DNA of 64,000 nucleotides from NCBI RefSeq assembly GCF_000504205.1, contig NZ_AZAJ01000001.1, forward strand, positions 1,152,879 through 1,216,878, written 5' to 3'. The stretch comes from Methanolobus tindarius DSM 2278. GTDB lineage: Archaea > Halobacteriota > Methanosarcinia > Methanosarcinales > Methanosarcinaceae. Positions 3,225 through 15,340 of this stretch are shown here, piece after piece. The notes under the pieces were generated by a model that had not been told where the DNA came from, ran no database searches, and saw only the letters and a list, made by a program, of their open reading frames with translations. A program made the translations under genes and the position numbers. How positions within the stretch are numbered: position 1 is the first letter of the stretch; every line of letters begins with the position of its first letter.

Positions 3225-4788
3225 TTTTGATCTTAATATAGAGGATTTCAAAACCCTCTTTGAAAATTCACAGAAGCCTGCCATAGTGCAGCTCATGACA
3301 AAAGTGGATAGCATTTGCAGCCCGCTACAACTCTATGCAACCCTGCAGAATGCAGGACATTCCTATCTGCTTGAATCAGTTGAAAAGGAAAAAAGGCATG
3401 CAAGGTATTCATTTGTAGGTTACGAACCTGAGATGGTTGTGTCTATCAAAGACAGATATATCACAATCGAATGCCAGATGAACTCCGAACTTACAAAGCA
3501 CATCTACAACAAGCTCAAGTCAATGGGAGATGTAGAATCACTTATCGGTGGTAAGTTCAGAGTAAAGGTAAACGAAGGTGACGATGCTCTGGCAGCTTTC
3601 AGGAAGATATATCCTACGAGCACCGGAACTCAGATGTTGAACCAGAAGCGCTTTGACAGGCAGACATTTCTGGGAGGAGCTATCGGTTATAACAGCTACG
3701 ACCTTGTTTACGATTCATGGTTAGACCGGGACAAGAAACCTGATGCAGATGTACCTGACATGCATTTCGCAATCATGTCAAAGACCTTTGTCTTCGACCA
3801 TATAACAAACGAGACATACATAGTAATCACACCCTTTGTAACTGAATCAAGTGACCTTGCGGACGTTTACGAGCATGCTGTATCTGAAGCTCAACTCATG
3901 GAAAGATCACTTCAAATGGCTTCAGTCATAAGTATCAGTGAGGATATTCCTGCAGCAGATACTGAACAGCCGGTTGCCAATATGGAGCAGGCGGCCTATG
4001 AAGAAGCTGTGAAAATTGCAAAACAGCACATCATTGACGGTGATATTTTCCAGGTAGTCCCTTCACGCAGATACACTGTGAAAATGAAGCAGACACCACT
4101 GCAACTCTACATCAGACTCAGGAACATCAATCCGAGTCCTTACATGTATATCTTCAACTTCAAGGATATCGGTATCGTGGGTGCAAGCCCCGAAACACTT
4201 ATGACAGTCTTTGACAGGAAAGTCATCACAAATCCTATTGCAGGAACCTGTCCACGTGGAAATAATGATGAAGAGGACAGAGAACTTGCACAGGAGATGC
4301 TAAGCGACAAGAAAGAACGTGCAGAACACGTGATGCTTGTTGACCTTGGACGCAATGATGTCAGAATGGTCTCAAAAGGCGGGACCGTTAAAGTTGATGA
4401 CCTTATGAGCGTGGTTAAGTATTCCCACCTCCAGCACATCGAAAGTACAGTCAGCGGCGAACTCAGGGACGAATGTGACCAGTTCGATGCTACACGTGCC
4501 ATATTCCCTGCCGGAACACTTTCCGGTGCACCAAAGATAAGGGCAATGGAAATAATAGATGAACTTGAACCTGAGTCAAGAGGCATCTATGGCGGCGGCG
4601 TGGGTTACTATTCATGGAATGGAGACGCAGACTTTGCAATTGTTATAAGGACAGTTCTTATCAAGAATAACACAGCTTACGTACAGGCAGGAGCCGGTAT
4701 TGTAGCTGACTCGGACCCGACATACGAATACAACGAAACCGAAAGGAAAATGGCTGCAATGATAAAGGCCATAGGAGGAAAACAATGA
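3217..4788 (+). CDS. trpE: Anthranilate synthase component I
   Basis: Converts chorismate and ammonia (supplied by TrpG) to anthranilate. The 523-residue protein has the N-terminal feedback region with LLES followed by RYSFVGYEP, the place where tryptophan binds in this family, and the chorismate-binding core with PIAGTCPRG, DLGRNDV, FPAGTLSGAPK and GIYGGGVGY. The GTLSGAPK sequence is typical of TrpE rather than of menaquinone or para-aminobenzoate enzymes, and the neighbours agree. The stop overlaps the trpG start (ATGA). Confidence 0.95.
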   Translation: MVDFDLNIEDFKTLFENSQKPAIVQLMTKVDSICSPLQLYATLQNAGHSYLLESVEKEKRHARYSFVGYEPEMVVSIKDRYITIECQMNSELTKHIYNKLKSMGDVESLIGGKFRVKVNEGDDALAAFRKIYPTSTGTQMLNQKRFDRQTFLGGAIGYNSYDLVYDSWLDRDKKPDADVPDMHFAIMSKTFVFDHITNETYIVITPFVTESSDLADVYEHAVSEAQLMERSLQMASVISISEDIPAADTEQPVANMEQAAYEEAVKIAKQHIIDGDIFQVVPSRRYTVKMKQTPLQLYIRLRNINPSPYMYIFNFKDIGIVGASPETLMTVFDRKVITNPIAGTCPRGNNDEEDRELAQEMLSDKKERAEHVMLVDLGRNDVRMVSKGGTVKVDDLMSVVKYSHLQHIESTVSGELRDECDQFDATRAIFPAGTLSGAPKIRAMEIIDELEPESRGIYGGGVGYYSWNGDADFAIVIRTVLIKNNTAYVQAGAGIVADSDPTYEYNETERKMAAMIKAIGGKQ

Positions 4789-5375
4789 AGGTATTGTTCA
4801 TAAACAACAAGGATTCTTTTGTCTGGAATCTTGTGGACTATGTGTCCATATACGAACCTGATACCATGGTCGTTCCTAACACCATTTCCCTTGAAGAAGT
4901 AAAGGAAATCAACCCTGATGCAATCGTGATTTCCCCGGGACCTGGCACACCTCACAAAGCAGAAGATATTGGTTCATGCCTTGATGTTATCAGGGAATTT
5001 GGTCCTGAAAAACCTGTACTCGGAGTTTGTCTTGGCCACCAGGCGATAAATACCGCGTTTGGCGGAACCATCGGACATGCAAAGGGTGGCCCGATTCATG
5101 GAAAAACATCTGATATCAGTCATGAGGAATCTCCGCTTTTTGAAGGACTTGATGACAAGTTTAAGGGTGGAAGATACCATTCACTTGCCATTGAGAAACT
5201 GGCAGATGACCTCAAAGTCACTGCAAAGACAGATGATGATATAATCATGGCAGTTGAACACAAAGAATATCCAGTGTACGGTGTACAATTCCATCCGGAA
5301 TCCATACTTACCGAAGAAGGATTGTGGATTGTCAAGAATTTCCTGAAAATTGCTGAACAGATGCAAAAGAACTAG
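4785..5375 (+). CDS. trpG: Anthranilate synthase component II, glutamine amidotransferase
   Basis: Class I glutamine amidotransferase that supplies ammonia to TrpE. The oxyanion segment SPGPGTP (about residues 50-56), the catalytic Cys82 in GVCLGHQ and the His170/Glu172 pair in VQFHPES are all present. At 196 residues it is a stand-alone amidotransferase without a fused TrpD domain. It is the last gene of the operon; an imperfect hairpin with a short T tract follows at 5419-5446. PabA function in folate-type synthesis is an alternative in other organisms, but the adjacent trpE makes TrpG the clear choice. Confidence 0.95.
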   Translation: MKVLFINNKDSFVWNLVDYVSIYEPDTMVVPNTISLEEVKEINPDAIVISPGPGTPHKAEDIGSCLDVIREFGPEKPVLGVCLGHQAINTAFGGTIGHAKGGPIHGKTSDISHEESPLFEGLDDKFKGGRYHSLAIEKLADDLKVTAKTDDDIIMAVEHKEYPVYGVQFHPESILTEEGLWIVKNFLKIAEQMQKN

Positions 5376-5418
5376 CTAATTATTGTTGCAGAGATTTTAC
5401 TCTGTAACTCATTTCCAG

Positions 5419-5446
5419 ATTGCTTAGAGAATTCTCTGCAATTTTC
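5419..5446 (+). terminator. Hairpin terminator of the trp operon
   Basis: The perfect palindrome AGAGAATTCTCT is extended by ATTGC/GCAAT arms with a two-base bulge and is followed by TTTT, 44 nt after the trpG stop. A good candidate for 3' end formation. Confidence 0.5.
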
Positions 5447-5484
5447 CATATACAAAAACAAAACACAAAGGAGGAAGTATTCAT

Positions 5485-5622
5485 TTGGGAAAATATGGCA
5501 TTAATCCAAAAAACAGACCATGGGAAGCTTCCTGGAGAAAACGCTGGACTGGAGCAAGAAAGTCTGTTGATTCTGCAAGAAACGGAGATTACTGGAAGGA
5601 ACCTATCAGGATTTCAGGATAA
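5485..5622 (+). CDS. Small basic tryptophan-rich protein, TTG start
   Basis: A 45-codon frame begins with TTG at 5485, seven bases after a very strong ribosome binding site (AAAGGAGGAA). The product is basic, with four tryptophans and many Arg/Lys residues; it starts MGKYGINPKNRP and ends EPIRISG. No membrane segment is present. A perfect 9-bp hairpin at 5655-5679 lies 33 nt after the stop, so ribosome binding site, frame and terminator form one unit separate from trp. I do not recognise the protein; RNA or nucleic-acid binding would suit its charge, but that is a guess. A longer frame in another phase overlaps it but lacks a ribosome binding site. Confidence 0.5.
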   Translation: MGKYGINPKNRPWEASWRKRWTGARKSVDSARNGDYWKEPIRISG

Positions 5623-5654
5623 GAACAACATCTTATAACAAAAATTAAATTTGT

Positions 5655-5679
5655 AATTCATCGCAAAAAACGATGAATT
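5655..5679. terminator. Bidirectional hairpin terminator
   Basis: AATTCATCG and CGATGAATT form a perfect 9-bp stem around a CAAAAAA loop, with T- or A-rich sequence on both sides. It lies 33 nt after the 45-residue gene and 46 nt past the stop of the convergent DUF1328 gene, so it can serve both. Confidence 0.55.
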
Positions 5680-5724
5680 TACACTTTTCTGTTGTTAAGA
5701 AATCAAATCAATAGCCGGTTTTTG

Positions 5725-5880
5725 TTAGAAGAAAAAAGATATGATCGCAAGTATCACAAAGATAACTACCAGCCATTTTGCAATTTCCATAGACAAACCA
5801 GCAATTCCTCTTGCTCCAAAAATGTAAGCTACCAGGGCCAATACTAGAAATGCTATAGAAAGTCCTATTAAAGACGCCAT
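5725..5880 (-). CDS. DUF1328 family small membrane protein
   Basis: A 51-residue protein made almost wholly of two transmembrane helices (about residues 3-20 and 31-50) joined by a loop with GARGIAG. This loop pattern and the length are typical of the DUF1328 (YtjA) family, found in many bacteria and some methanogens, whose role is unknown but is sometimes linked to stress. The ATG at 5880 follows a GGAG ribosome binding site. It is monocistronic, convergent with the preceding small gene. Confidence 0.85.
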
Positions 5881-6184
5881 TTTATTCTCCTTTGCTTATT
5901 TTGTTTAAATAATCTGATGAAATACAGCATCCGCTAGGAACATCTTAATTTAACTTTTCACCATCATACATCGTATTGCTACAGCAGTATTTCCGGCTAT
6001 GCTATATTTCCCACTCCGATGTTCAATGCAGAAAGAAAAGAGGATAACATAGTTTATCCATCTTAAAGCTCTCCCCACTATTATTTATTATGCAATTTTA
6101 GTATATGTAATTAAGGGAGAAAAATTATTAATGCAAACCAAAGAACATCACAAGAATTAAGCACTAGTATACTTATTCTTAACT

Positions 6185-6736
6185 ATGCTTATCGGTATCA
6201 CAGGAACTCCGGGAACTGGAAAAACATCCGTGACAAAACTGCTTGAAAAGGAGCGGTTTTATCAGGTAATCCATCTCAATGAACTGATAAAAGAAGAAAA
6301 ACTTTACTCTGAAGTTGATTCGGAAAGAGACTGTGTTGTTGCTGATATGGACAGGGTTTATGACAGAGTCCTTGAGCTTCATGACAGGTCATATCCTGTA
6401 ACGATAGTTGATAGTCACCTCTCCCACCACATTGCTGATATTGTTATTGTACTGAGAACTGACCCTGCAATACTAAGAGGAAGACTTGAAAAAAGGAATT
6501 ACTCCGAAGAAAAAGTAAAGGAAAATCTCGAAGCTGAGGCTCTTGATATAATCCTTGCAGAATCAGTGGAGTGGTGTGAAAAAGTCTTTGAACTTGATAC
6601 TAGCGGAGAAAGTGCAGACAATACAGAGAAGGCTATCATGCGAATAATCCGGGGACTGCGAAACGGCAATACAGAAGAACTTGAAGAGGAATTCAGGCCG
6701 GGATCTGTTGACTGGTTTGACTATCCATTTGACTGA
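6185..6736 (+). CDS. Adenylate kinase-like ATPase of the AK6/Fap7 family
   Basis: A 183-residue P-loop kinase with Walker A GTPGTGKT at residues 7-14, a DSHLSHH segment near residue 78 at the place of the usual AK6 DTPGH-type motif, and RLEKRNYSEEK in the lid region. Archaeal members of this family are annotated as putative adenylate kinases; the eukaryotic homologue Fap7/hCINAP acts with ribosomal protein S11 in 18S rRNA maturation, and an archaeal Fap7 binds the equivalent ribosomal protein. A ribosome-assembly role is therefore likely by family. The start has no clear ribosome binding site, so the mRNA may be leaderless. Its stop nearly meets the convergent kinase gene. Confidence 0.85.
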   Translation: MLIGITGTPGTGKTSVTKLLEKERFYQVIHLNELIKEEKLYSEVDSERDCVVADMDRVYDRVLELHDRSYPVTIVDSHLSHHIADIVIVLRTDPAILRGRLEKRNYSEEKVKENLEAEALDIILAESVEWCEKVFELDTSGESADNTEKAIMRIIRGLRNGNTEELEEEFRPGSVDWFDYPFD

Positions 6737-6743
6737 ATAACAA

Positions 6744-8309
6744 TTAATTCCCAACAAGACTTGCCTGCATATTCTGTTTCAGGTTTTCAGGAACTCTGGG
6801 TAGTTTAAGCGTGAATGTAGTTCCTTTGCCATATTCACTTTCGACCTGAATGTCGCCGTTATGCATTTTTACATATTCCCTGACAAGCATCAGGCCCAGC
6901 CCCACACCGCCATGTTTGCGGCTTACAGAACCATCTAACTGTACAAAAGGTTCGAATATTCTTTCCATATTTTTTTTCTCAATTCCAATTCCCGTATCAG
7001 AAACTCCAAAATAAACATAATCAGAATTTTCCTTTACAGATATTGATATCTTACCGCCTTCCGGAGTAAATTTAATTGAGTTTTCCACGACATTGTAAAG
7101 CATCTCGGTAACCTTATCGGCATCAGCTATTATTTCTTCAAGACCGGGGTCGATAGCTGAATTTACACAAATATTCTTTTTGGCAGCCAGTGAACTTGAC
7201 CTTTTAAGAACAATAGAAAGAACATAATCAGGACTGAAACTTTCATAGCTCAAATCCATCCGACCTGATTCTATCATGGATAAATCCAGCATCCTGTTAA
7301 CAAGCTCAAGTAACCTGGCTCCACTTTTGTTGATTATTGAAATATACTCCTGCTGTGACTCATTCAGTTGGCCGGATACACCTTCCAGCAATACATCGGA
7401 AAAGCCGATAACAGAACTCAGAGGAGTTTTAAGTTCGTGGGTAATGTTGGCCAGCAGCTCATTTTTATACTGGTTAGCCTCCTCAGCAGCAATTCTTGCT
7501 CTTAGCATCTGCTCCTCGGCAAGTTTTCTGTCTGTTATATTAATACAGGTTCCAATAGACCTGTGAGGAACATTGTTTTTATCAATATCAAAGGGTTTCC
7601 CATGACCTGTAATCCATATCCATGTGCCATCACTTGAGCACATCCTGAAATCCATCTGGAATGGCTCCCTGTTTCGCAGATTATCAAGTAATCTGGAAAT
7701 GACAACATCCTGATCTTCCGGATGTAAAATTGATTTCCATGCATCAAATGTTTCCGGCAGGTCACCAGGATTATATCCAAACATGGAATACCAGCCCTTA
7801 CTGAAATATACTTTATCAGTATCCATATCCCAGTCCCAGAAACCCTGACCTGAAACTTCCATAGCAAGCTTTAATCGTTCCTCACTTGCCTTGAGGGAAT
7901 CTTCTGCAACTTCTTTTGCCACAAGAGCTTCTTTTTTATCAAGAGCTTCCCTTACTGAATAAGGCAATCTTTTGATACGATCCTTGAGAACATAATCCGT
8001 CGCACCTTCTTTCATACATTTTACTGCTGTTTCCTCATTGAGGGAGCCAGTGAAAACTATAAACGGAATGCTGCTATCATATTCCAGAAGCAATTTGAGT
8101 GCCCTCATGCCATCAAAAACAGGAAGGCTGTAATCGGAAATAATCAGGTGGGGTTTGAATTCATCTAACTGTTTCAGGAATTCATCGGCAGTCTCTACTC
8201 TTATGGAGCTAAAAATCAATCCATCTTTCCGCAGTATCCTCTCTGCCAGCTCCGTATCAGAAGGGACATCCTCTACGAACAGTATTCGCAAATCAGAATT
8301 TTGCTCCAT
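6744..8309 (-). CDS. Hybrid sensor: receiver-PAS-histidine kinase
   Basis: A soluble 521-residue protein. Order: receiver domain at residues 8-125 with phosphoacceptor Asp59 (IISDYSLP) and Lys109, a coiled linker, a PAS domain of the PAS_3 type at about 145-265, HisKA with phosphorylated His291 in NITHELKTP, and a C-terminal ATPase with N, G1 (DTGIGI) and G2 (GGVGLGL) boxes. No membrane segment. It is the last gene of a three-gene operon: the start lies 3 nt after the upstream receiver stop and has an AAGGAGTGAT ribosome binding site. A likely phosphorelay runs from the giant kinase through the single receiver to this protein; direction of phosphate flow is inference. Confidence 0.9.
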   Translation of the reverse strand: MEQNSDLRILFVEDVPSDTELAERILRKDGLIFSSIRVETADEFLKQLDEFKPHLIISDYSLPVFDGMRALKLLLEYDSSIPFIVFTGSLNEETAVKCMKEGATDYVLKDRIKRLPYSVREALDKKEALVAKEVAEDSLKASEERLKLAMEVSGQGFWDWDMDTDKVYFSKGWYSMFGYNPGDLPETFDAWKSILHPEDQDVVISRLLDNLRNREPFQMDFRMCSSDGTWIWITGHGKPFDIDKNNVPHRSIGTCINITDRKLAEEQMLRARIAAEEANQYKNELLANITHELKTPLSSVIGFSDVLLEGVSGQLNESQQEYISIINKSGARLLELVNRMLDLSMIESGRMDLSYESFSPDYVLSIVLKRSSSLAAKKNICVNSAIDPGLEEIIADADKVTEMLYNVVENSIKFTPEGGKISISVKENSDYVYFGVSDTGIGIEKKNMERIFEPFVQLDGSVSRKHGGVGLGLMLVREYVKMHNGDIQVESEYGKGTTFTLKLPRVPENLKQNMQASLVGN

Positions 8310-8312
8310 AGA

Positions 8313-8765
8313 TCACTCCTTCTTGTTAGGGCTTTCATTCATCAATAGCCAGTAAAAACCAATATTGCGTATTGCTTCCACGAAATTATCGAAATCTACT
8401 GGTTTTACAATATAACTGTTAACCCCAAGCCGATAGCTTTCAACAACATCAGATTCTTCTTTTGATGAGGTTAACATCACAACAGGAATCATTTTTTTAT
8501 CCGGATCGCTTTTTATTACTTTTAGAACATCAAGACCATCCATTTTTGGAAGTTTTAGGTCAAGTAAAACAAGACGGGGATTTACATTTATATCACGATC
8601 TCCAAATTCCCCCCTGCCATAAAGATAATCAATAGCCTGTTCCCCATCTTCAAGAACAACAATATTATTAGCTATCTTGTTCTTTTTCAATGCCCTGAGA
8701 GCCAATTCCCTGTCATTGGGATTGTCCTCTACAAGTACTATCTCAACTTCATTCTCCGCAAACAT
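8313..8765 (-). CDS. Single-domain response regulator, Rcp1 type
   Basis: A 150-residue CheY-like receiver with the acidic pocket (about residues 13-14), phosphoacceptor Asp69 in LLDLKLP and Lys121 in VKPVD. The C-terminal extension FYWLLMNESP is typical of Rcp1-type regulators that partner phytochrome-like kinases. It has no output domain, so it acts by protein contact or as a relay. Its start overlaps the end of the giant kinase gene by 17 nt, which implies coupled translation and a direct partnership with that kinase. Confidence 0.9.
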   Translation of the reverse strand: MFAENEVEIVLVEDNPNDRELALRALKKNKIANNIVVLEDGEQAIDYLYGRGEFGDRDINVNPRLVLLDLKLPKMDGLDVLKVIKSDPDKKMIPVVMLTSSKEESDVVESYRLGVNSYIVKPVDFDNFVEAIRNIGFYWLLMNESPNKKE

Positions 8766-11700
8766 TGTCTCCCTCTTTTATAGGTAATGAAAAGTAAAAT
8801 GTAGCTCCTTTATCAAGTTCCCCTTCGGCCCAGACATCTCCCCCATGCCTTCTTGCTATCCGCTGTACAATGGCAAGTCCTACACCTGTCCCCGGGAATT
8901 CTTTCTCGCTATGTAAACGCTGGAATATTCCAAAGAGCTTATGAGAATATTTAGGATCAAAGCCCACACCATTGTCCTTTACGAAATAAACATTCATTCC
9001 ATCTTCAGTGTAAGAACCTACTTCAACTACACCTTTTTCCCGGGATGAACTGTATTTAATGGCATTAGAGAGCAAATTGACCCATATTTGTTTTATAAGA
9101 GAAGAGTCTGCATAACTGTCTGGAAGCTCGGAAACACTGAACTTTATATCATGGTTATTTTCAGTTGCTGCCAGGTCATTGAAGACTGATTCTACCATGG
9201 CATTCATGCTTATAAGAGCACAATTCATTTCGTTTCTTCCAACTCTGGAAAGCCCCAGGAGGTCTGTGATAAGTTTGTCCATTTTCTGTGTATTGGTCCT
9301 TATAACATTGAAAAGGCGCTTTCCTTCATCATCAAAAAGCTCCTCATAATCTTCAGTTATGATTCTTGAAAAACCATCAATTGCCCTTAAAGGAGCACGC
9401 AGGTCGTGAGATACGGAATATGTGAAGGCTTCAAGTTCTTTATTAGCCTCCTGTAGCTGGGATGTGCGTTCAGCCACACGTAGTTCGAGTTCTTCCGCAT
9501 GTTTTCGCACCTGATCATTCAGGCTTGAATGATGTATAGCTATAGCAAGCTGGTTTGCAATTTCTGTTACTATTTCCTGATATTCTTTTGTAAAGAAATC
9601 AGGCTTATCTGAGGCAAGGCTTAAAATACCCATCAATTCGCCTTCTATAAGTAATGGCACGACAAAACCCGAATGTACATCTTCTTCGGAAAATGTCTTT
9701 CCCAGTTCGGAATCCGGTGTTTTATATTTGTTTAAATCAGGAATGATTACTGTTTCCCCGGCCTTTAATCTGTCAAGTTGGGGTAAAGAATCAAGAGGAG
9801 AACGTGATCCAGTGGCAAACTGGGATTCGTGTTCAGAGTCTACTGCAAAAACAACTTTTTCGTTAGTATCGGCATCAACAAGCCTTATAATTGCAATGGA
9901 ACATGGAACCAGTTTACGTAAATGATGAAGCACTTCATTAGCAATCTCCTCGGAAGATACTGAGGAAATAATATCCGTATCGATATTATGAAGCATATTC
10001 AAGCGTTCATTATAACGAAGAATTTCTTCTTCTGCTTTTTTACGATCTGTAATATCAACAGAAGAACCCATATAGATTTCATTGCCCTGAATGTCCTCAA
10101 AAAGCTGAGCATACATCAGGACTTCAAAAGTGGAACCATCTTTACGCAGAGCTGTAAATTCAATGGCATATTCGCCTTTTTCCTTTAGATTACTAATAAT
10201 CTCTGCCGGAACTTCGGGGTCATTACAATGGCCGACAGGAGAAGTTCCCAGGATCTCACTTATATCGTCATACCCCCACATCTTAAGATAGGCTTTGTTG
10301 GCGTAAATAAATTTACCTTCTGAATTTATAATATCAAAACCATTCAGTGAATATTCCAGAGCATTGCTTTTCAGTTTAATCTCCGCTTCAGCCTGCTTTC
10401 TGGAATCAATGTCCTCTATCATGGCGATGAAATACAGAGGTTCACCTGCAGAGGAATTTACAATTGCAACAGTGACATTAACCCATATCAAGTTTCCATC
10501 TTTACGAACATATCGTTTTTCGATGGAATAATCTTTTCTTTTTCCTAAAACCAGCTCTTCAACCATAGATAATTCGTCACCAAGGTCTTCATGATAGGTA
10601 ATATCGGCAAAATTCATCCGGATAAGTTCCTCGTTATCATATCCTATAATATCACAAAAGCGCTGATTCATCTGGAGTAAGAACCCATCCATGTTGGCCA
10701 GACACACACCAACAGCTGCCTGTTCAAATGTAGCACGGAAACGTTCTTCACTTTCATGAAGCGATGTGAGCAGTTCATCACGTTCGTTCAGGGTCCTTGC
10801 AAGCTTGACATTACTATAACTTAATGTGGATATCAGATTAGTAAGGAGGGAATAATAAGTCATCAGCGAATCCACTTTTTCCCTGCTCCAGCGTGGAACC
10901 CTGTCAAGTGCTTCTAAGTATTCCTTTTCGTTAAAACCATATTGATTTGCCTGATTCCTGAATGTTTCATAGGAAATCTCTTCATCATCAAGGAAAAACT
11001 GACCAATGAAAAGGTTTCCAACATGCAAACCCCCCATTACAATGGGAGTTACCATATCCCACATGTTATTCTTGCATTTGTAGAACCTGAATTTACCTGG
11101 TTCTACTCCTGTAGTCAGTTCTACATCACTTTCAGTACAATGCTTACATGTCTCCGGATGGACACGATGGAATTTTGTGCAAATGTCCTGCCACCCGACA
11201 GCTACCAGAACATTGCCCTTGAGATCAAGTATGGCCATTCCACCCATTTTGGTAAGCTGGTAAAATTTATCCATCAATTTTTGCAGAGCCTCAACATCAA
11301 CTATATCAGCAAGTTCCAGTTCCCCAAGATCCCCCTCCGGTTCCAGAATAGCATCCAACTTATTCCTTACCCGAAGCTCACTTTCCTGTAACATGTCGGC
11401 AGCTATCTTACGCTCAGTTATGTCCTGCATGGAGCCGGTCAGCTTTACAACTTTACCATCTTTTAAAACAGGGCGTCCAATGGTACGTACCCATTTGTTC
11501 ACACCGTCTGCAGATATTAGTTCAAGTTCAAGGTCATAAGGTTCAGCGTTACCAATCGCATTTTGAATTGCAGCCTCAATTCTCTCTTTTGATTCTGATA
11601 CGAAGAAACTCAGTCCGATATCTTCATTTGTAGGATCACCTGGATCTACACCGTGAATCTTTGCAACTTCAGGTGTCCATGTACCTTCTCCGGTAACAAC

Positions 11701-14700
11701 ATCAAACTCCCAGCCGCCAATACTGGCAATTTCACCAACTTCATCCAAGAGCAATCTCTCTTTCTGGAGTTCAAACTCGACTTTTTTAAGATGAGTTATG
11801 TCCTGTAAAAATCCAACAACTTTAACAATTTTGCCATTTTCAAAAACAGGTTGTCCACCTGTCCTTACCCATTTATGCACATTTTCAGAAGAAATAAATT
11901 CAAGCTCAAGATCATAAGGCTCTCCGTTTTCAATAGCATTCTGGAAAGCTTTTGAAATTATTTCACGTGAATCCGGAAGATAATATTGCAAACTCAGGTC
12001 TACATTTGCTTTGGTATCTGGATCAAAACCATGAATTAGCGCAACCTCTCGGGTCCATGTGGATTTGCCGGACAAAACATCAAACTCCCATCCTCCTATT
12101 TTTGCAACATCTCCCATTTCGTTGAGTAAACGATCCTGTTTAAAAAGTTCAAATTCTGAAAGTTTACGATCCGTTATATCCTGGAAAGAACCAATTAATT
12201 TTGTAACCTTGTTGTCAGTAACAATTGGGCGACCACTTGCACGAACCCATTTATGATTACCTTTTGCGGTTATCAGCTCAAGTTCAAGATCATATGGCTG
12301 CACTTTCTCTATTGCGTCCTGAACAGCTTTGCTGATAATTTCTTTTGAACCTGGTGCATAGTAATCCATACCTTCGCTTACATTTACTGTGCCTCCCGGC
12401 TCAGGATCCATATCATGAATATTGAACACCTCAGGAGTCCATTCTATTTCCCCTGATGAAACATCCAGGCTCCAGCCACCAACACTTGCTATCTCACTAA
12501 CTTCATCTAAAAGGGATTTATTCCTCTTTAGTTCGTCTGTTGTGTTTTTAAGATCAGTTATGTCCCTGAATACTGTAAGTATATACTTTTCAGAATCTGT
12601 TGAAATAATATCCCCTGAAATTATAACCGAGAGATTTTCGCCTTCTTTAGTACGAATATCAATTCCCAAATTTCGCACAGTTCCATTGAACTTAAGCTGA
12701 TTAATATACTGATCACATATGCCGGAGTCAGGCCATATTGCAAGATCACAGAGAGAAAAACCAAGAAGTTCATCTATTCTGTATCCTTTATTCTTCAGGA
12801 AGCTATTATTGACATTGACGATGTTACCATCAAAAGATGTGAGTATAATGCTATCAGGCACAGTATTGAATACTGTAGCAAACATTTCCTCGGTTTTAAT
12901 AAGCGCTGACTCTGTCATTTTGCGTTCGGTGATATCTTCCGAGAAGATTACAATACCACCGATTTTATCATCGTTAGTTCGCCAGGGTCGAACCTCCCAA
13001 CGTAACCATTGTTTTGTTCCGTCCTCCCTTTCGAAAAGATCCTCTTCACACCGAATAACTTCACCATTCATACACTTCTTATGAACTTCTTTCCACCTGT
13101 CACCTATTTCAGGGAAAACTTCGTAATGGGATTTTCCAATAATATCCTGATCCCCAAGGTGATACTCTTCCATCCATCTACGGCTAACTGCGATATGTCG
13201 CATATCGCGATCCAGCATTGTCAATGCGGCAGGAGCATGTTCGATGAACAATTTCAGTTTTTCTTCATTTTCATGGAGCTTCTTCTCAGCGATCTTGCGT
13301 TCAGTGATATTACGGGCAACAATCAGGATGCTGGGCGTGACATCCTTGTCTTCCATAGGAACAGAACTTACCTCTATTGGAATTTCATTTCCATCTTTGT
13401 CAACGAATTTTGTTTCATAAAGGAAGGTTTTCCTATCGAGATTTACACGGTGACCTCTGCGTTCATACATCTTTTCCTGTTCATCAGAAGAGACGAATTC
13501 AGTCACGTTTTTAGAGAGAAATTCGGATTCTGAATAACCACTGAACTCCACAGCAATTTTATTCGCATAGAGCAACTTGCCCTGCAAATCATGAACTATT
13601 ATGAAATCCCTTGCAGTATCTGTGAGTAAGCGATATTTCTTTTCACTTTCAACAAGAGCTTTTTCTATTTTCTTACTTTCAGTAATATCCCTTACACTGG
13701 CAAGAATGTACTTCTGGCCATCCAGAACAATTGGACTGGCATTGATATCAACCGGAAACTGCGAACCATCTTTGCGTACATGAGTCCACTGGAACTGCAA
13801 TCCATTACTCATGATTTCTGTAATCGGGAATTTGGAAGGATCACTTAGATGAACCGGGGACAAATCCCAGGCAACCATGCCCAACAAATGACTTCTGCTA
13901 TACCCGTAAAGATCCTCTGCAACCCTATTGGCATCCAGTATCCTGCCATTTTCATCAATGAGGAAAAGCGAGTCAGAGTTATTGTCAAACAACTGACGAT
14001 ATCGGTTTTCGGATTCATTCAAGGATGCTGTACGAGTCTCAATTTCCTTTTTAAGGGAAACACTGTAACTCAGCAGAAGATATACAACTAATGTCAGGAG
14101 GATGACAATGATGATTCCGCCTTTTTGGAATACCAGTAAAGTATCTGTCACTGAGTTATCCCAACCACCTATCGGAACAGCAGCAAGTTCCCAGGTCCTA
14201 TCAGAAAGAACAACATAATAGATTTCATGCTCCATCCGGAACACGTCATCTGAACCAAATAACAACTGATCGGAATCGTCACGTAAGGCTATATCTATAT
14301 TGTCATTCCCAACTACTAATCCCGATGCCTGAAGCAACGATGGTACATCGATGACCATTGTAACAATGCCCCACAAGGAATCTTTGATGTAAACCGGCTG
14401 CCGGACTACTATACCATAGCCACCACGCTGCATTTCATAGGGACCGGTAATAACAGCATCATGGGTTTGAATGGCTTTTAGTACATCATTACGAACCTGC
14501 GGACGTTCATCGTTAATCAGATCATCCAGCGTGCGGTTGGCTACAATTTCATTACCTTGAAGAGGATAAACATAGGCTCCTGAAAAATTGGTATACACTT
14601 CAATAGAACGAATGGCTGGTGACCCGGAATATAAACCGAATGCAAACGCTTCAAAATGCTTATCCATCGCCTCTTGTGTAGGATTTGCCCTGATAAAAGC

Positions 14701-14943
14701 ATCGAGTCCGTCAAGATGAGATAAAACATTGTTGACATGGTTTTCCAGTGTGTTGCCACTGGAGAATAATTGTGTGTTAACTTCTGATTTCTTGTTAAGT
14801 ATCAGATTTTCTTCATATAAAGCGCTGGCTTGCAAGAAGACGAACATTAACAGAACAAAAGCTAAAGCTGCACCCAGCAACGCTATGTAACCCTGTCCTG
14901 ACAATGACAGGGTACCTGAGGTCTTTCCAGATCCTCCGGACAT
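8749..14943 (-). CDS. Giant membrane histidine kinase: CHASE, nine PAS, PocR, GAF, HisKA, ATPase
   Basis: A 2064-residue sensor kinase. A transmembrane helix at 20-40, an outward-facing CHASE-type domain at about 60-265 and a second helix at 276-294 are followed inside by PAS domains starting near 312, 432, 557, 684, 808, 936, 1062, 1398 and 1527. Domains five to seven are close copies of each other. A PocR-type ligand domain lies at about 1205-1375 with Cys1255, Cys1266, Cys1269 and Cys1290; GAF is at 1645-1805. HisKA has His1846 (SVSHDLRAP) and the ATPase has Asn1956/Asn1960 and GTGVGLA. The kinase end is of the phytochrome type. Ribosome binding site AAGGAG precedes the ATG. First gene of the operon. 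Signals are unknown: one extracytoplasmic and many cytosolic. Confidence 0.92.
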   Translation of the reverse strand: MSGGSGKTSGTLSLSGQGYIALLGAALAFVLLMFVFLQASALYEENLILNKKSEVNTQLFSSGNTLENHVNNVLSHLDGLDAFIRANPTQEAMDKHFEAFAFGLYSGSPAIRSIEVYTNFSGAYVYPLQGNEIVANRTLDDLINDERPQVRNDVLKAIQTHDAVITGPYEMQRGGYGIVVRQPVYIKDSLWGIVTMVIDVPSLLQASGLVVGNDNIDIALRDDSDQLLFGSDDVFRMEHEIYYVVLSDRTWELAAVPIGGWDNSVTDTLLVFQKGGIIIVILLTLVVYLLLSYSVSLKKEIETRTASLNESENRYRQLFDNNSDSLFLIDENGRILDANRVAEDLYGYSRSHLLGMVAWDLSPVHLSDPSKFPITEIMSNGLQFQWTHVRKDGSQFPVDINASPIVLDGQKYILASVRDITESKKIEKALVESEKKYRLLTDTARDFIIVHDLQGKLLYANKIAVEFSGYSESEFLSKNVTEFVSSDEQEKMYERRGHRVNLDRKTFLYETKFVDKDGNEIPIEVSSVPMEDKDVTPSILIVARNITERKIAEKKLHENEEKLKLFIEHAPAALTMLDRDMRHIAVSRRWMEEYHLGDQDIIGKSHYEVFPEIGDRWKEVHKKCMNGEVIRCEEDLFEREDGTKQWLRWEVRPWRTNDDKIGGIVIFSEDITERKMTESALIKTEEMFATVFNTVPDSIILTSFDGNIVNVNNSFLKNKGYRIDELLGFSLCDLAIWPDSGICDQYINQLKFNGTVRNLGIDIRTKEGENLSVIISGDIISTDSEKYILTVFRDITDLKNTTDELKRNKSLLDEVSEIASVGGWSLDVSSGEIEWTPEVFNIHDMDPEPGGTVNVSEGMDYYAPGSKEIISKAVQDAIEKVQPYDLELELITAKGNHKWVRASGRPIVTDNKVTKLIGSFQDITDRKLSEFELFKQDRLLNEMGDVAKIGGWEFDVLSGKSTWTREVALIHGFDPDTKANVDLSLQYYLPDSREIISKAFQNAIENGEPYDLELEFISSENVHKWVRTGGQPVFENGKIVKVVGFLQDITHLKKVEFELQKERLLLDEVGEIASIGGWEFDVVTGEGTWTPEVAKIHGVDPGDPTNEDIGLSFFVSESKERIEAAIQNAIGNAEPYDLELELISADGVNKWVRTIGRPVLKDGKVVKLTGSMQDITERKIAADMLQESELRVRNKLDAILEPEGDLGELELADIVDVEALQKLMDKFYQLTKMGGMAILDLKGNVLVAVGWQDICTKFHRVHPETCKHCTESDVELTTGVEPGKFRFYKCKNNMWDMVTPIVMGGLHVGNLFIGQFFLDDEEISYETFRNQANQYGFNEKEYLEALDRVPRWSREKVDSLMTYYSLLTNLISTLSYSNVKLARTLNERDELLTSLHESEERFRATFEQAAVGVCLANMDGFLLQMNQRFCDIIGYDNEELIRMNFADITYHEDLGDELSMVEELVLGKRKDYSIEKRYVRKDGNLIWVNVTVAIVNSSAGEPLYFIAMIEDIDSRKQAEAEIKLKSNALEYSLNGFDIINSEGKFIYANKAYLKMWGYDDISEILGTSPVGHCNDPEVPAEIISNLKEKGEYAIEFTALRKDGSTFEVLMYAQLFEDIQGNEIYMGSSVDITDRKKAEEEILRYNERLNMLHNIDTDIISSVSSEEIANEVLHHLRKLVPCSIAIIRLVDADTNEKVVFAVDSEHESQFATGSRSPLDSLPQLDRLKAGETVIIPDLNKYKTPDSELGKTFSEEDVHSGFVVPLLIEGELMGILSLASDKPDFFTKEYQEIVTEIANQLAIAIHHSSLNDQVRKHAEELELRVAERTSQLQEANKELEAFTYSVSHDLRAPLRAIDGFSRIITEDYEELFDDEGKRLFNVIRTNTQKMDKLITDLLGLSRVGRNEMNCALISMNAMVESVFNDLAATENNHDIKFSVSELPDSYADSSLIKQIWVNLLSNAIKYSSSREKGVVEVGSYTEDGMNVYFVKDNGVGFDPKYSHKLFGIFQRLHSEKEFPGTGVGLAIVQRIARRHGGDVWAEGELDKGATFYFSLPIKEGDNVCGE
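11380..12522 (-). repeat. Three tandem PAS-module copies within the giant kinase
   Basis: Residues about 808-935, 936-1061 and 1062-1188 are three successive modules of about 127 residues that share GGW near the start, a WT-E motif, PYDLELE in the middle, KWVR and QDIT near the end. They are far more alike than the other PAS domains in this protein, so they arose by internal tandem duplication. Confidence 0.8.
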
Positions 14944-15245: not shown

Positions 15246-15317
15246 GCCGAGATGACAGAGTGGCTAATGTGACCGCCTGCAGAGCGGTTTTCCGGGAGTT
15301 CGAATCTCTCTCTCGGC
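15246..15317 (+). tRNA. tRNA-Cys (anticodon GCA)
   Basis: The sequence folds into a full cloverleaf: 7-bp acceptor stem (GCCGAGA with TCTCGGC), U8, a D stem of three canonical pairs with a G13/A22 mismatch, a 5-bp anticodon stem ACCGC/GCGGT around CTGCAGA (anticodon GCA at 15279-15281), a 5-nt variable loop and a T arm GGGAG-TTCGAAT-CTCTC with one G-U pair. No intron and no encoded CCA. The next base (15318), the discriminator, is A, whereas tRNA-Cys normally has U73. cysS starts about 22 nt downstream, so the two are probably co-transcribed. Confidence 0.92.
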
Positions 15318-15340
15318 ATTTTATTTATCAGGTGTTTACT

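Follow-up and report, generated by a model that had tools for sequence, protein, structure and literature searches.

A small tryptophan-rich gene of Methanolobus with a likely origin by overprinting within AK6/Fap7

In the stretch of DNA analyzed here (64,000 nucleotides of Methanolobus tindarius DSM 2278, hereafter the window), a small gene stands between trpG and the gene for AK6, and comparison of related genomes makes it very likely that this gene was born by overprinting within AK6/Fap7 and was copied out by partial duplication, which would have freed AK6. A fuller natural history of a nested gene is also probable, leading from birth through a codon-locked phase, two losses and an escape by duplication to the freeing of codons, with a product that may act in the same process as that of the mother gene.

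The small gene (5485-5622, + strand) comprises a TTG start and 45 codons followed by TAA, as the initial annotation of this DNA had described, and its product is, as also described there, basic with four Trp residues (11 Lys and Arg vs 4 Asp and Glu; computed pI 10.7). The ribosome binding site that had been placed at perfect spacing does exist as the Shine-Dalgarno-like AAAGGAGG (5467-5474, + strand); it lies ten bases before the TTG, slightly farther than claimed. Among 60 genomes searched, 27 of them of the genus and with one genome per species, so that the evidence is at species level, the stand-alone gene was found between trpG and AK6 in 7 of the 27 Methanolobus genomes. These seven are referred to as clade A (G000, which is the window's genome, G007, G022, G001, G005, G010 and G025). 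The TTG and the open frame are kept in all seven, with 29 of 45 columns invariant, and the 39 variable nucleotide columns fall 6/9/24 at codon positions 1/2/3, a three-periodic variation (chi-square p 0.0008) that was not seen in the control, the 39 bases upstream, which vary 10/9/10. Within this small sample of seven sequences of 45 codons, summed pN/pS was 0.23 in frame, and it rose to 1.58 and 1.29 when the two alternative frames were read. The periodicity and the low pN/pS therefore indicate purifying selection on the protein, and by these substitution patterns the ORF is a protein gene under purifying selection. The earlier suggestion of an overlooked real gene is thus strongly supported; equal synonymous and non-synonymous change, which had been named as its refutation, was looked for and not found.

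The same annotation held the protein to be without homologue, and this was wrong: the small gene derives from AK6 DNA, and its homologue is the +1 frame that AK6/Fap7 carries in related Methanolobus species. In the window, AK6 or archaeal Fap7, the mother gene, occupies 6185-6736 (+ strand); its closest solved chains are 4cvn and 4cw7 (putative adenylate kinase; E 2.4e-27), and it matches AAA_18 in Pfam. AK6 is present in 26 of the 27 genus genomes, the sole miss being a genome that is 70% complete (G014), and the AK6-bearing genomes were grouped into clades A (7), B (9) and C (10; outgroup species). After the clade A genes, the next nine matches in the 60-genome search all sit within AK6 in its +1 frame. 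At the DNA level, the small gene aligns with AK6 over a stretch that takes in the ribosome site, the TTG and nearly all of the ORF, and AAAGGAGG is continuous in this alignment with AK6-derived DNA that reads AAAAAAGGAAGTATTCAGTTG in clade B AK6. Clade A small proteins are 58% identical to the nested frame of clade B, 28% to clade C and 20% to the +1 frame of clade A's own AK6, whereas the copy read in the AK6 frame contains stops and reaches at most 26% identity to AK6. By the DNA alignment and these frame identities, AK6 codons are the source of the small gene's Trp codons and of much of its ribosome site.

The region concerned is AK6 codons 108-152 (6506-6640, + strand, in the window), whose +1 frame encodes the small protein in clade B and has two stops and no start in G000. 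A TTG followed by an open +1 frame was found in 7/9 clade B, 0/7 clade A and 0/10 clade C genomes. The clade A AK6 genes have 2-4 stops in this frame; in clade C, one genome is open without a start and another has the TTG and a stop. An open second frame within an older gene, as expected of overprinting, is therefore present in clade B, and the mother gene is indeed the older and more widely spread of the two, being found throughout nearly all the genus genomes and having solved AK6 chains in other organisms. When intact clade B genes were randomly recoded at synonymous codons with their own codon use, frame and start survived in only 1%-16% of trials (seven genomes). One of these nested frames, in G015, has a poor ribosome site (AAAAGAAAG). 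Start and frame were lost together in both clade B exceptions, G020 (TTA, two TAG) and G024 (CTG, one TAG). All three stops that break the nested frame in these genomes (loci L015 and L016) are TAG. Methanosarcinaceae can read TAG as pyrrolysine, and read-through may occur in these two frames, yet the TTG start is gone in both. A profile of the clade A and B proteins matched 21 of 111 family genomes at E 0.01: seven of clade A, nine of clade B, three of clade C (G021, G003 and G026), in which the AK6 +1 frame is broken by a stop, and two (G011 and G067) whose matches were rejected as chance because they fall in unrelated genes (topoisomerase-like and polyphosphate-kinase-like frames, as read from translations). 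Apart from those broken frames and unrelated genes, no nested protein was found outside clades A and B in the 111 genomes.

If the nested frame is a gene, AK6 should be constrained at synonymous sites across the overlap, and this was demonstrated by comparing AK6 codons 108-152 (inside) with the rest of AK6 plus trpE and trpG (outside). In the seven intact clade B genomes, a set defined after seeing which frames are open, the synonymous difference was 0.153 (122/796) inside vs 0.439 (4801/10926) outside. The suppression was absent from clade A (0.351, 262/747, vs 0.307, 3474/11332) and from the ten outgroup species of clade C (0.438, 602/1375, vs 0.473, 10422/22016). It persisted in clade B against the rest of AK6 when G020 was kept (eight genomes; 0.173 vs 0.407) and when both G020 and G024 were kept (nine genomes; 0.203, 263/1294, vs 0.418, 1653/3951). 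In the eight-genome set, the minimum among 633 sliding windows was reached by the one beginning at AK6 codon 102; the window of the overlap itself ranks 15th, behind windows that largely coincide with it, and windows clear of the overlap never fall below 0.276. Column permutations reached the observed overlap value in 0 of 20000 trials for these eight genomes, vs 16599 for clade A and 4539 for clade C.

Suppression was confined to one codon position: third positions of clade B AK6 vary in 0.44 of codons in the overlap vs 0.88 outside, and first positions in 0.31 both inside and outside. Because the third position of an AK6 codon serves as the second position of a nested codon, this third-only drop fits a second protein rather than a general nucleotide constraint. 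For AK6 in clade B, pS was 0.213 and pN 0.065 inside (pN/pS 0.31), vs 0.562 and 0.103 outside (pN/pS 0.18). The nested frame's own pN/pS in clade B was 0.80, below the control frame (1.83) and not low, as expected where the demands of the AK6 protein leave the nested frame few free synonymous sites. G020, which has lost the frame, showed a nearly relaxed ratio of 0.79 against its sister G019, a value from one pair only (7 of 36 codons), and suppression was weaker in G009, a nested clade B genome (ratio 0.54-0.67 across its six pairs). A separate observation is that clade A AK6 compared with G024 at 6506-6640 had a higher synonymous difference inside (0.601, 122/203) than elsewhere (0.437, 1597/3656), as if the codons had rebounded.

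We infer from these sequences that the small gene is translated and that the nested form starts by internal initiation, most likely at the TTG behind AAAAGGAAG of the clade B AK6 message. Programmed frameshifting in AK6, which would yield an AK6 variant with a new tail, is an unlikely alternative route into the clade B +1 frame. It would explain why that frame is open for about ten codons ahead of the TTG and why suppression sets in slightly before it, at the codon 102 window, but not why the TTG is present in all seven open clade B frames and lost in both broken ones, or why in clade A the gene comes with a ribosome site of its own and a TTG at the same place. We regard as very unlikely the possibility that a constrained RNA or DNA element, such as a regulatory site or a structured RNA, was copied from AK6 with no protein gene involved. 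A hairpin is conserved in the clade A leader, and constraint on every nucleotide would likewise depress synonymous change in clade B; against this, variation in clade A is three-periodic in the small frame with a low pN/pS, suppression in clade B affects third and not first positions of AK6, and no Rfam family matches at the small gene (the only Rfam match was a tRNA at 15246-15318). It is highly improbable that the small gene is a decaying AK6 fragment that chance, or gene conversion from AK6, has kept open: its DNA is AK6-derived, as a pseudogene's would be, but the AK6 frame is the broken one and the small frame the one kept, neutral decay would not yield 6/9/24, and the copy is least like its own AK6, the opposite of what gene conversion predicts. 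A recent recombination tract between clade B species, lowering synonymous divergence with no second protein, is scarcely credible, since the tract is indeed short and common to several species but amino-acid differences persist in it (see the inside and outside pN and pS above), its bounds match the ORF, and clade A retains the same frame as a separate gene.

With the protein-coding reading preferred, the gene neighborhood suggests how the escape took place. Every one of the 19 clade B and C genomes has AK6 at short spacing after trpG (4785-5375, + strand, in the window) with no insert, the distance being 24 bases in the 11 measured; in clade A the small gene lies between them. The bases just before AK6 in G000 (CATCACAAGAATTAA-GCACT) resemble the trpG tail and leader of clade B (CATAAGAATTAA-GCACT), and this likeness suggests a tandem duplication, although the residual trpG tail of about a dozen bases makes its tandem nature suggestive only. 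A protein tree of trpE, trpG and AK6 recovered clade A (100/99) and a clade of A plus B (100/100), with C outside and B paraphyletic or not resolved. AK6-only and trpE plus trpG trees agree on A and on A plus B, and xenologous replacement of the clade A AK6, a scenario that was considered, was rejected because these trees show no sign of it. G024 may be the sister of clade A, a placement with support of 93/95 in the combined tree and 44/91 with AK6 alone, and trpE plus trpG did not reject this placement (p-AU 0.45).

Between the small gene and AK6, two of the seven clade A genomes, G000 and G025, carry a gene for a DUF1328 small membrane protein (5725-5880, - strand; Pfam PF07043, E 7e-14). 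Since G007, the apparent sister of G000, is without the insert, more than one gain or loss of this gene is possible. Elsewhere in the window, 8749-14943 (- strand) encodes a very long multi-sensor protein of 2064 aa, judged by eye to have recurring PAS-like segments and to end in a kinase-like part, which adjoins receiver- and kinase-like genes.

The small gene had also been credited with its own terminator. An exact 9-bp inverted repeat is present after it (5655-5679, + strand; arms AATTCATCG at 5655-5663 and CGATGAATT at 5671-5679), and the fold of the 81-base stretch that contains it was beaten by 1 of 200 shuffles (z -3.7). The repeat is missing, by inspection, from the other six clade A genomes and has no clean T-run after it, and a terminator pattern scan of 4500-7000 listed no terminator. 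In five of the seven clade A genomes, the start of AK6 lies some 60 bases past the small gene with no such repeat between, so that the hairpin is a local feature of G000 and a terminator belonging to the small gene is not supported. A different hairpin, just after the trpG stop (5385-5408, + strand), is common to the clade A leaders, with an RNAalifold consensus stem of 8 pairs in seven sequences and little covariation support (covariation term only -0.12). Its single-sequence fold was matched by 0/200 shuffles in G000 (z -3.38), 11/200 in L003 and 24/200 in L006. A second short stem occurs farther on. The 5385-5408 hairpin might be an RNA element, placed where the trp genes end, that serves in processing or regulation.

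Database searches gave few clues to the product. The small protein had no accepted Pfam match and none to AK6-type families (the best below the cut-off was a nitrate reductase N-terminus, E 0.039), no match in NCBIfam or PDB, and none among viral contigs. With no AK6-type match and with stops in the copy's AK6 frame, it does not belong to the AK6/Fap7 family. Its AlphaFold model was poor (mean pLDDT 58), with helices at residues 12-23 and 25-29; the helix is not significantly amphipathic (801/10000 shuffles as high), and W13, W17 and W21 are conserved in all seven clade A genomes. In Pyrococcus, Fap7 binds Rps14, as described in a study of the archaeal complex (PMC4019466). Because of its charge and the message that it shares with Fap7, we tentatively suggest that the small protein might bind RNA or the ribosome through the Trp/Arg helix 12-29, acting with Fap7 or near the small ribosomal subunit.

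Taken together, the comparisons make the following history very likely. In the common ancestor of clades A and B, an internal TTG in the gene for AK6, the archaeal Fap7 and a ribosome-assembly adenylate kinase, would have opened the +1 frame, and the gene would have stayed nested in clade B. In the ancestor of clade A, a duplication, probably in tandem, would have set a partial copy of AK6 between trpG and AK6; this copy would then have retained only the +1-frame protein, lost the AK6 frame and gained a better ribosome site in four of the seven genomes. The true AK6 would thereafter have been free at synonymous sites, and its +1 frame would have decayed.

Genes nested on the same strand are a disputed matter in cellular organisms, since proof is difficult to obtain. 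The present gene is nested in some lineages, free in a related one and absent from an outgroup, and the constraint on the mother gene thus visibly switches on and off, which offers a direct test of how overlapping genes are born and resolved. The case also supplies a new family of small archaeal proteins, and it indicates that selection for a second protein can act on the synonymous codons of a conserved gene for ribosome assembly. A search of titles and abstract openings, with most subscription journals outside its coverage, turned up no case in which duplication had relocated a nested prokaryotic gene. A review of viral overlaps describes adaptive conflict and, in its accessible part, does not report release by duplication (PMC8227390). 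A small-protein study of Methanosarcina mazei set aside ORFs inside genes because standard profiling is unsuited to them (PMC11456600).

Short Trp-rich ORFs near trp genes are familiar as trp leader peptides, and the small gene is likewise short, Trp-rich and near trp genes. A leader peptide or attenuator was nevertheless rejected, since the small gene follows trpG, with AK6 next, and is not upstream of trp structural genes; unlike leader peptides, moreover, it derives its Trp codons from the AK6 +1 frame and lies inside AK6 in clade B. AK6/Fap7 itself is the source of the small gene's DNA, and the small protein, because it is read in another frame, is unrelated to AK6 and no homologue of it. 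The laoB gene is reportedly an overprinted overlapping gene of E. coli. The nog1/citC pair comprises overprinted overlapping genes of the same species, and the accessible part of that report mentions no relocation of the new gene (PMC4683798). Like these, the small gene is young, lineage-restricted and short, and was probably born in another frame of an older gene; unlike nog1/citC, it is nested on the same strand, archaeal, and has a free copy in a sister lineage. Embedded out-of-frame archaeal genes have been reported from ribosome profiling (Gelsinger et al. 2020, as cited in PMC8665328). The present gene resembles them, as described there, in being a protein-coding frame nested in an archaeal gene, and differs in that evolutionary constraint and an escaped copy, both known from sequence alone, reveal it.
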